Of a stretch of DNA of 64,000 nucleotides, positions 13,703 to 62,511 are shown piece after piece. The translations under genes and the position numbers were made by a program. Where the stretch lies: NCBI GenBank assembly GCA_016192135.1, contig JACPUR010000038.1, forward strand, positions 134,157 to 198,156, written 5' to 3'. Origin of the DNA: Candidatus Tectomicrobia bacterium (GTDB lineage: Bacteria; UBA8248). Position 1 is the stretch's first letter; each line of letters opens with the position of its first letter. The notes below the pieces were generated by a model. That model saw only the letters and a list, made by a program, of their open reading frames with translations, made no database searches and had not been told where the DNA came from.

Positions 13703-13841
13703 GGGGCGCTCCTCCAGGTGGGGGCCGGGAATGGGCCATCCTCGCCCAGGCGGGCGGAGGGATCAAGGAGCGGGAAAGGAGGAGAGAGCGCCCGCGCCCG
13801 CTTCCCTCCCCCGGCCTCGAATCCGGCCGTGCCATGAAGGT

Positions 13842-14112
13842 GCGCGAAAATGGCGTCATTTGCGGTAGCTGGCTTTTCCCGCCCCGGGCCTACATTGGCC
13901 TCCGGGGCGGGGTGCGCCCGGCGTCATGAGGTCCGTAGGGGCGAATCTTGTATTCGCCCCCTGCGCCCGGGCGAACACGAGGTTCGCCCCTACGGATTCG
14001 GGAGGTGCGGAGGGTTTCCGGTGGTTTCAGGGATTTTCAGGCTTATTCAGGGATATTCAGGCTTATTCAGGCTTATTCAGGCATTTTTTTACGCGCGCGC
14101 GAGGGGGCAGGG
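13842..14112 (+). repeat. decamer-phased dispersed element, copy A
   Basis: Composite intergenic element filling most of the 466-bp gap 13703-14168. In order: module CGAAAATGGCGTCATTTGC with GGTAGCTGGCTTTTC (13845-13878); palindromic CCGCCCCGGGCCTACATTGG-type hairpin (13879-13911); an inserted TAGGGGCG hairpin (13935-13993); GGGAGGT; six exact 10-bp units ending TTTCAG/TTTTCAG/TATTCAG (14021-14080, for example GCTTATTCAG three times); then a T7 tract and ACGCGCGCGCGAGG. The same modules occur in reverse order and strand at 36.8-37.2 and, decayed, at 62.0-62.35 kb. Confidence 0.85.
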
Positions 14113-36811: not shown

Positions 36812-37175
36812 TCCGCCTCGAATATCGGGGAATATCGGGAAAAGCGGGAATATTGGCTTGCCTCCGAGAACGTCCGCGGATTTTTTGGGCTGGAATATCG
36901 TGAAATATCGTGAACAGCCGGTGGAGCCACCCCCGGCCCCAGGGGCTCCGCCCCTCCTCGCGCGCGCGTAAAAAATAAGCCTGAATATCCCTGAATAAGC
37001 CTGAACATCCCTGAATATCCCTGAAACCTCCCGTCTCATCCCCGCGTCTCAAATTCAACGGCAAACGCCCCCGCCCCTGCATGGAGGCGCGGCCCGCCCG
37101 GAGGCCAATGTAATGCCGGGGAGAGAAAAGCCGGTTACAGCAATTTCCGCCAATTTCGCGCACGTTCGTGATCGG
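36812..37175 (-). repeat. decamer-phased dispersed element, copy B
   Basis: Reverse-oriented homologue of copy A, filling most of the 600-bp gap 36802-37404. 36830-36850: AATATCGGGG/A decamers. 36892-36919: GGAATATCG-TGAAATATCG-TGAACAGCC. 36957-37030: CCTCGCGCGCGCGT, A6 tract, then exact 10-bp units CTGAATATCC, CTGAATAAGC, CTGAACATCC, CTGAATATCC, and GAAACCTCCCG. 37085-37118: CCGCCCGGAGGCCAATGTAA hairpin module. 37111-37165: GAGAAAAGCCGGTTACAGCA and CAATTTCCGC/CAATTTCGCG decamers ending CACGTTCG. Confidence 0.83.
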
Positions 37176-61099: not shown

Positions 61100-62037
61100 G
61101 CGATGCCCCCCGCCCCGAGGAGCTCGCCGCCTCCGCCGCCGAGTTCGCCCGGGGGGCGGGCGAGCTCCTCCTCGGCCTTTTCGGCAAGCGGGTCGAGGTC
61201 GAGTACAAGGACGCCGCCAAGACCGACCCCGTGAGCGAGGCCGACCTCGCCAGCCAGAACTTCCTCCAGCAGCGCATCCTCGGCCGCTACATCGGCCACG
61301 CCGTCCTCGGCGAGGAGAAACCCAAGGACGTGGAGGCGGCCCAGGCCGAGGGCGCCCAGATCGTCCCCGAGTACCTCTGGGTGCTCGACCCCCTGGACGG
61401 CACCAAGAACTTCCTGAACGGGCTCGCCGTCTGGGGATGCTCGGTGGGGGTCCTGCGCCGGGGCCGGCCCGTCGCCGGGGCCGTCTTCACCCCCGAGCCC
61501 CCGACCGTGGACTCGGCCGCCGGGGCCGGCGGCACCGTCTACCGCGCCTGGGAGGGCGGGGGCGCCTGGCGGGAGGAGCGCCCCATCCGGGTGGCCCCGG
61601 ACGAGAAGCCCACCGGCCAGCGCATCTCGAGCCTCCCGGGCTCCTACCTCACCCAGTACCGCCCGACCGGGCCCCTCAAGCAGAGCGGCCTGGGCGAGGT
61701 GCGGGCGCCCGGCTCCATCGCCTACGAGCTCGCCCTCGTGGCGCGGGGCGGGCTCCACTTCGCCCTCTTCGGGGCCCCGAGTATCTGGGACGTGGCGGCG
61801 GGGGTGCTCTTGGTGAAGGAGGCGGGCGGGCTCCCCCTCATCCGCCGCGGCGGGTCCGACTATTGGGACCCCCTCGTCAACTTCTTCCCGGAGGAGGACG
61901 AGTCCCCCCGGACCCTCGACCTCGCCCGCAAGTGGCGGCGCGCCATCCTGGTGGGCAACCCCGGCGTGAGCCGCTTCCTCGCCCAGAATCTGAGGAAGGT
62001 GAACCGCCCCGGCCTCTGGTTCAGGCGGCGGCGGTAA
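61096..62037 (+). CDS. inositol monophosphatase-family phosphatase
   Basis: 313 residues from ATG 61096. Motifs: TDPVSEADLASQNFL, VLGEEKPKD (metal Glu), WVLDPLDGTKNFLNGLAVWG (DPxDGTxNF), and SIWDVAAGVLLVKEAGG (WDxAxG). Mg2+/Li+-sensitive phosphomonoesterase family that includes IMPase, histidinol-phosphatase and CysQ-like enzymes; an insert of about 40 residues before the second metal motif is noteworthy. Coupled with an Ldh2-like dehydrogenase. Followed by element copy C. Confidence 0.9.
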   Translation: MSDAPRPEELAASAAEFARGAGELLLGLFGKRVEVEYKDAAKTDPVSEADLASQNFLQQRILGRYIGHAVLGEEKPKDVEAAQAEGAQIVPEYLWVLDPLDGTKNFLNGLAVWGCSVGVLRRGRPVAGAVFTPEPPTVDSAAGAGGTVYRAWEGGGAWREERPIRVAPDEKPTGQRISSLPGSYLTQYRPTGPLKQSGLGEVRAPGSIAYELALVARGGLHFALFGAPSIWDVAAGVLLVKEAGGLPLIRRGGSDYWDPLVNFFPEEDESPRTLDLARKWRRAILVGNPGVSRFLAQNLRKVNRPGLWFRRRR

Positions 62038-62350
62038 AAAGGGGAATTACCCGGTATTATCGGCAACTAACCGCAATTACTTGCAACTTTTGGAACCTCC
62101 CCCCCTCATCGTCCCGCCGCGCCATTCGCTGAAAAAAGCCGTAATTCCCCGGGATTCCCCGGAAACTGCCGGAAAGACCCTTCTTCCCATCTCTAATCCC
62201 TACCTCGAAACCGGATTCCGTAGGGGCGGGTTTCAAACCCGCCCCTCCGGATGCGCGCGGCGCCCCGGCGCGGGTCCGCCCGAAGGGGAATATAGGAGGG
62301 AATGGGGAAAAGCCATTTACCGCAAATCGCAGCAAATGACGCCATTTTCG
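62037..62350 (-). repeat. decamer-phased dispersed element, copy C (diverged)
   Basis: Same module order as copy B in the gap 62038-62511: decamers GGGGAATTAC/CCGGTATTAT/CGGCAACTAA/CCGCAATTAC/TTGCAACTTT (62041-62090), GGAACCTCCCCCCTCATC, decamers GTAATTCCCC/GGGATTCCCC/GGAAACTGCC/GGAAAGACCC (62141-62180), an inserted TAGGGGCG hairpin (62219-62247), then GGAAAAGCC...TTACCGCAAAT, CGCAGCAAAT and GACGCCATTTTCG (62306-62350). The last module matches copy A except for one extra 10-bp unit. Confidence 0.8.
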
Positions 62351-62511
62351 TGTGGGAATGTGAACACCATATGTTGTATGAAAACCCAATTTTGCACATC
62401 TTATCCACCATATTTTGTGCGATTTCCTCGCATTTCGCTTGATCTTCACCTACCAAAGGAATACATTTTCGAACAGATTAACTCGCCCAATGATAGAAGG
62501 AGACCATAGCG

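Follow-up and report, generated by a model that had tools for sequence, protein, structure and literature searches.

A promoter-linked family of 10-bp repeat arrays resembling small-terminase codons in a Candidatus Tectomicrobia genome: candidate DNA-packaging sites of a gene-transfer-agent-like gene set

The window analysed here is a 64,000-nucleotide stretch of contig JACPUR010000038.1 of a Candidatus Tectomicrobia bacterium (G000, the source genome, 3.92 Mb). A profile search revealed strong copies of the CGAAAATGGCGTCATTTGC module at three places only within this 64-kb window, and these copies (A, B and C) have the following features.

13837-13870, + strand: copy A operator, the phased decamers of the predicted promoter (profile match of 84.4 bits)
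13891-13896, + strand: copy A -10 box, TACATT, at the expected place for TAnnTT and reading toward the array
13935-13998, no strand assigned: REP-like palindrome inserted in copy A, from a separate repeat family and outside the element proper
14021-14080, + strand: copy A type-f decamer array, six units ending TTCAG, also detected by TRF
14083-14104, + strand: copy A distal tract beyond the type-f array, a T run plus ACGCGCGCGCGAGG, common to type-f copies
36812-36853, - strand: copy B second type-a-like array (array profiles and TRF)
36881-36919, - strand: copy B type-a array (TTCACGATATTTCACGATATTC), matching the helix-turn-helix codons of terS-a on contig C14 (91% over 33 bp)
36955-37030, - strand: copy B type-f array with its T and CG tract (array profiles and TRF)
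37107-37112, - strand: copy B -10 box, TACATT
37133-37170, - strand: copy B operator decamers (module profile)
62036-62091, - strand: copy C type-d array (lag-10 search and array profiles)
62131-62180, - strand: copy C type-e array (lag-10 search and array profiles)
62289-62294, - strand: copy C -10 box, TATATT
62316-62352, - strand: copy C operator, with one additional 10-bp unit (operator alignment)

Re-reading of the sequence, together with TRF, bears out the layout given for copy A in an earlier note, with six 10-bp units ending TTCAG, a T tract and ACGCGCGCGCGAGG behind them, and the CGAAAATGGCGTCATTTGC module upstream. The reverse copy that the note placed at 36.8-37.2 kb is copy B. The diverged copy at 62.0-62.36 kb, copy C, does contain the module, but its arrays are of two other decamer types and not that of copy A. 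The copy A array is one of about seven types. The palindrome (GTAGGGGCGAA...TTCGCCCCTAC, at 13935-13998 and 62220-62258) is indeed present in some copies, but belongs to a separate dispersed repeat that is very common in the genome; most of the 72 matches from a search of the genome are of the palindrome alone, without the element. Location between genes, described as invariable, applies to the majority of copies; arrays of this kind occur inside terS genes as well. No match was found to the known repeat or RNA families looked at, in agreement with the note: an Rfam scan of the window gave no match, and a tRNA scan of the window found nothing. The distal tract of the type-f arrays (for example within 14021-14104) consists of a T run and alternating CG; sequence of this kind is known to be prone to the Z-DNA form.

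The module profile, built from 14 copies and used at E<1e-4, identified 63 copies in G000, 56 in the sister species G002 and 22 in the 67%-complete genome G001. Further copies therefore exist, which disposes of the possibility, raised in the earlier note, that those in the window are chance resemblances. Other genera of the family have 0-8 weak copies each, and there are almost none elsewhere. The exact promoter pattern has no match in viral contigs and 15 matches in unrelated genomes, which, taken as a group, are read as chance. In a 455-kb sample of the genome, 19 of 20 lag-10 stretches adjoin a module; of the other lags, 7, 11 and 13 gave none and 8 gave one. The sole exception at lag 10 is an AT-rich stretch at L061 2918-2968, away from any module. 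Even spacing along contigs is not supported, the copies being spaced no more evenly than random. Eight of the gene-less G002 copies sampled share both flanking genes with a G000 copy, and two more share one side. The non-orthologous positions between close relatives that would be characteristic of a MITE or REP were thus not seen in the sampled G002 and G000 copies.

The module is a predicted promoter whose operator is made up of 10-bp units in phase. In copy A, read on the + strand, the operator gives way to GTAA and then to a conserved GGC; a TAnnTT box stands 17 bp beyond the GGC and is in its expected position in 54 of the 57 copies examined. The operators of different copies differ by whole 10-bp units, with an extra unit in copy C and in L060. 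This suggests proteins bound on one face of the DNA, as the earlier note had proposed from the exact 10-bp phase. Intrinsic curvature, its other suggestion, did not fare as well. In a wedge model, the bends of type-f arrays and of the operator were no different from those of shuffled sequence, and among six stretches only the type-e array of copy C, weakly raised, fell below P=0.05.

This promoter is shared with phage-type genes. A -10 box of the same kind precedes the starts of terL, the capsid gene and terS, and the promoter unit lies 44-93 nt upstream of the starts of TerL, capsid/protease, terS and other genes. A similar unit of decamer and TATATT can also be read by eye upstream of TerL in other genera (G004, G006 and G009). 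Seven of the 57 copies lack an array, and all seven precede genes. In six, a phage-type or small ORF begins 48-93 nt downstream, namely the TerL ATPase, a capsid/protease fusion, small secreted proteins by tape-measure genes in two cases and small ORFs on contig C10 in another two; the seventh is a weak copy upstream of an aldo/keto reductase and may be due to chance. At many loci the operators differ between species in parallel: orthologous G000-G002 pairs (51% identity) are hardly more alike than random between-species pairs (50%), as against 61% and 57% within species.

The phage-type genes identified encode TerL (GpA), a portal, a head protease/capsid, a tail tube, a tape measure and TerS. 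TerL/portal, TerS, capsid/tail and tape-measure genes are spread over contigs C10, C14, C30, C20 and C41 with host genes between them and the promoter in common, that is, as scattered loci under common control, as expected of a gene transfer agent (GTA). Amongst 12 genomes of the family, TerL is present as a single copy in eight and the capsid gene in nine, across several genera, so that these phage-derived structural genes have been kept by descent in the host lineage, another GTA characteristic. The capsid dN/dS between G000 and G002 is ~0.25, and TerL identity in the G002 comparison is 82%. TerS, TerL and the capsid protein have no close relatives among phage collections or viral contigs, and no integration or replication genes were noticed among the called ORFs of the loci fetched for the phage-type genes. 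The gene set looks GTA-like. TerL (L135 3546-4628) is the ATPase half only; the 223-codon ORF directly downstream looks by eye like the nuclease half, and has no PHROG match. Small ORFs near the capsid gene likewise have no PHROG match. Small secreted-looking proteins (~69 aa) are repeatedly encoded beside tape-measure genes (L133 1209-1418; L146 4604-4813 and 5065-5271).

Arrays of 10-bp units are carried by 50 of the 57 copies examined (48 identified by family profiles and two by lag-10 search), and a search of 900 nt on the opposite flank of the promoter found none in any of the 57. In 864 kb, all 70 array matches lie on the transcribed side, in one orientation and within 870 bp. There are seven main array types, named a to g, with a distal tract of A in some types and of T in others. 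Where a copy has two arrays, they are usually roughly 65-130 bp apart. Several readings of the arrays were set aside. A CsrA-type GGA sponge (only about half of the units carry GGA) was dropped by eye, as were Rho sites and intrinsic terminators, the array types being varied in base make-up and tract (A or T). Translated helix-turn-helix peptides from gene-less copies were also rejected, a frame with a ribosome-binding site and start being present in six of 21.

G000 contributed two genes and one remnant to the terS sequences read, G002 four genes and G007 two. The three genes scored match Pfam Mu Gp27 and PHROG 426 (small terminase), with modest scores; comparison of solved structures with the TerS alignment gave no credible match. 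When six terS genes are compared with sampled elements, the matches cluster on the sense strand at the helix-turn-helix codons (~nt 125-200), apart from a few short ones scattered elsewhere in terS; terS-d had no match to the sampled elements at that threshold. In terS-b, 28 of 28 bp are identical to the gene-less copy L127. The terS-a gene of G000 matches nine gene-less G000 copies and none in G002. Its G002 counterpart, 80% identical, matches arrays at five G002 loci and, within the array, none in G000. In these matches, arrays and terS codons differ between the species in parallel.

The decamers are also visible in the synonymous codon choice of terS. Over an 18-codon segment, third-position GC is 0.50-0.67, compared with 0.83-0.99 in the remainder of the gene. 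The lag-10 score is above that of synonymous shuffles (P<0.02) in eight of nine terS genes from the two genera with arrays, the exception being terS-a of G002 (P=0.15). Neither the third-position dip nor the lag-10 signal is present in any of five control terS genes, taken from genera in which the module is scarce.

In-gene arrays thus lie where a pac site would be expected, in or beside a small-terminase gene; the gene-less copies lie elsewhere. At one locus, from the promoter to the same neighbouring gene, G002 has an intact 225-codon terS-d and G000 has the promoter followed by a type-d and a type-f array, the gene-less type-d array of G000 having more units than the in-gene array of G002. 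On contig C2 of G000, a half-decayed terS without a start retains the promoter and a type-e array. For array types d and g an intact terS is present in the sister species only, and no terS matching type f was found. Several diverged terS paralogues occur in one genome. A TerS-like ORF on contig C10 (L135 10292-10834) aligns to the TerS profile from position 63 on only, and therefore lacks the helix-turn-helix.

The arrays are related to the DNA-recognition codons of terS and share a promoter with phage-type genes, and may therefore mark where packing of host DNA starts. We propose, giving it an even chance, that the element combines the promoter of a GTA-like regulon with arrays recognized by TerS, i.e. 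pac-like packaging-initiation sites across the host chromosome. The computed observations are that a promoter family exists and is shared with phage-type genes, that arrays follow the promoter in a fixed order, that they resemble the helix-turn-helix codons of terS and not the rest of the gene, that arrays and terS differ in parallel between species, and that one locus has terS in one species and promoter plus arrays in the other; from these we infer that TerS may bind the arrays and packaging may begin there. The TerS ring carries helix-turn-helix domains round its rim and has been proposed to wrap ~100 bp of DNA (PMC6854486). Neighbouring domains would meet successive helical turns of an array, TerS would recruit TerL to cut there, and packaging of host DNA would start at the cut sites. 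The promoter may have been retained because transcription opens the site or ties packaging to induction of the regulon.

The placement of arrays inside terS, as pac of P22 lies within its own TerS gene (PMC9611059), favours this proposal, as do the restriction of arrays to the transcribed side, their species-by-species match to terS, and the locus at which terS-d in G002 corresponds to promoter and arrays in G000. Against it, two models of TerS-DNA interaction compete, and the HK97 structure indicates threading of DNA and not wrapping (PMC11331095). G000 has no intact terS for types d and g, and for type f no terS partner was found; a packaging site would have no need to be tied so closely to a promoter, always in the same orientation; and the spacing of copies is no more even than random. 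The GTAs studied so far are also reported to package without discrete start sites. The fuller version, a GTA with sequence-specific chromosomal initiation sites related to the recognition-helix codons of its TerS, in which binder and site evolve as one sequence, is tentative and falls somewhat short of an even chance.

Alternatively, a terS gene with its own helix-turn-helix codons as the site could pack its own locus. Particles would then carry that locus and promoter-terS cassettes would spread, the gene-less copies being non-autonomous and served by TerS in trans. A site within the gene for its putative binder, several diverged terS paralogues in one genome and the abundance of gene-less copies, whose arrays are of several types, would all fit. 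Recent spread is not evident, however, because eight of the sampled gene-less G002 copies share both flanks with a G000 copy, and we regard such selfish behaviour as unlikely.

Two further explanations are, to a similar degree, less likely again. Gene-less copies might transcribe terS-like sense segments that titrate an antisense RNA or RNA-binding protein controlling terS. The promoter is kept in all copies and every array is sense-oriented downstream of it, as this would require; but a distal tract of A or T according to type is easier to reconcile with DNA than with RNA, the 10-bp phasing, a property of DNA, recurs in the operators, which lie upstream of the promoter, and the window has no Rfam match. 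Gene-less copies might instead be decaying, functionless terS genes, like the remnant on C2. The absence from G000 of a terS present in G002 at one locus, and the fact that just 6 of 21 gene-less copies place the array in a frame with a start and a ribosome-binding site, point the same way. Decay does not readily explain why array and promoter survive when the remainder of terS does not, why operators differ in parallel between species (0.51 against 0.50, and 0.61 and 0.57 within species), or why the gene-less type-d array is longer in units than the in-gene one. An ordinary REP/MITE-type repeat or intrinsically curved DNA is very improbable, since the element, though dispersed, intergenic and in some copies accompanied by a palindrome, has positions common to both species and arrays tied to promoter and terS, the palindrome is a separate family, and bending is not consistently raised over shuffled sequence.

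The ~50 candidate sites described here bear on how a domesticated phage picks host DNA to package, and are directly testable. Exact 10-bp units are what would be expected if successive helix-turn-helix domains of a ring meet successive helical turns, which bears on the debate over TerS-DNA interaction. It is unusual in itself for a putative recognition site to lie in the codons for its own binder and to shape the synonymous choice there.

Bacterial interspersed repeats such as REP/BIME, MITEs and cyanobacterial short tandem repeats are short, dispersed, intergenic and modular, as is this element. Unlike them, the arrays are non-palindromic, promoter-linked and of fixed polarity, and resemble a gene segment. 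As in RcGTA and its relatives, packaging, head and tail genes lie at several chromosomal loci, in one bacterial family and under one promoter type. The C10 TerS-like protein, aligning outside the helix-turn-helix only, recalls the TerS of RcGTA, which has been described as lacking a specific DNA-binding domain (PMC6854486). Unlike RcGTA, other TerS genes here keep the helix-turn-helix and the genome holds ~50 candidate recognition sites. Published work reports no discrete packaging start sites for GTAs (PMC6854486, PMC7947584), and the element copies would therefore be the first candidates. With P22 pac the in-terS arrays share their place inside a small-terminase gene (PMC9611059). The TerS of SPP1 touches DNA at a number of places around the cut (PMC9611059), and many gene-less copies here hold two arrays roughly 65-130 bp apart. 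Unlike the pac sites of P22 and SPP1, the decamer arrays occupy helix-turn-helix codons, and ~50 more copies, downstream of a phage-type promoter, are dispersed over the host chromosome. A further parallel is with the pseudo-pac sequences of P22 in Salmonella, which are reported to be host chromosomal sequences resembling pac at which packaging can start (PMC11226127); the arrays described here are instead terS-related and promoter-linked, and their differences between species run parallel to those of terS.
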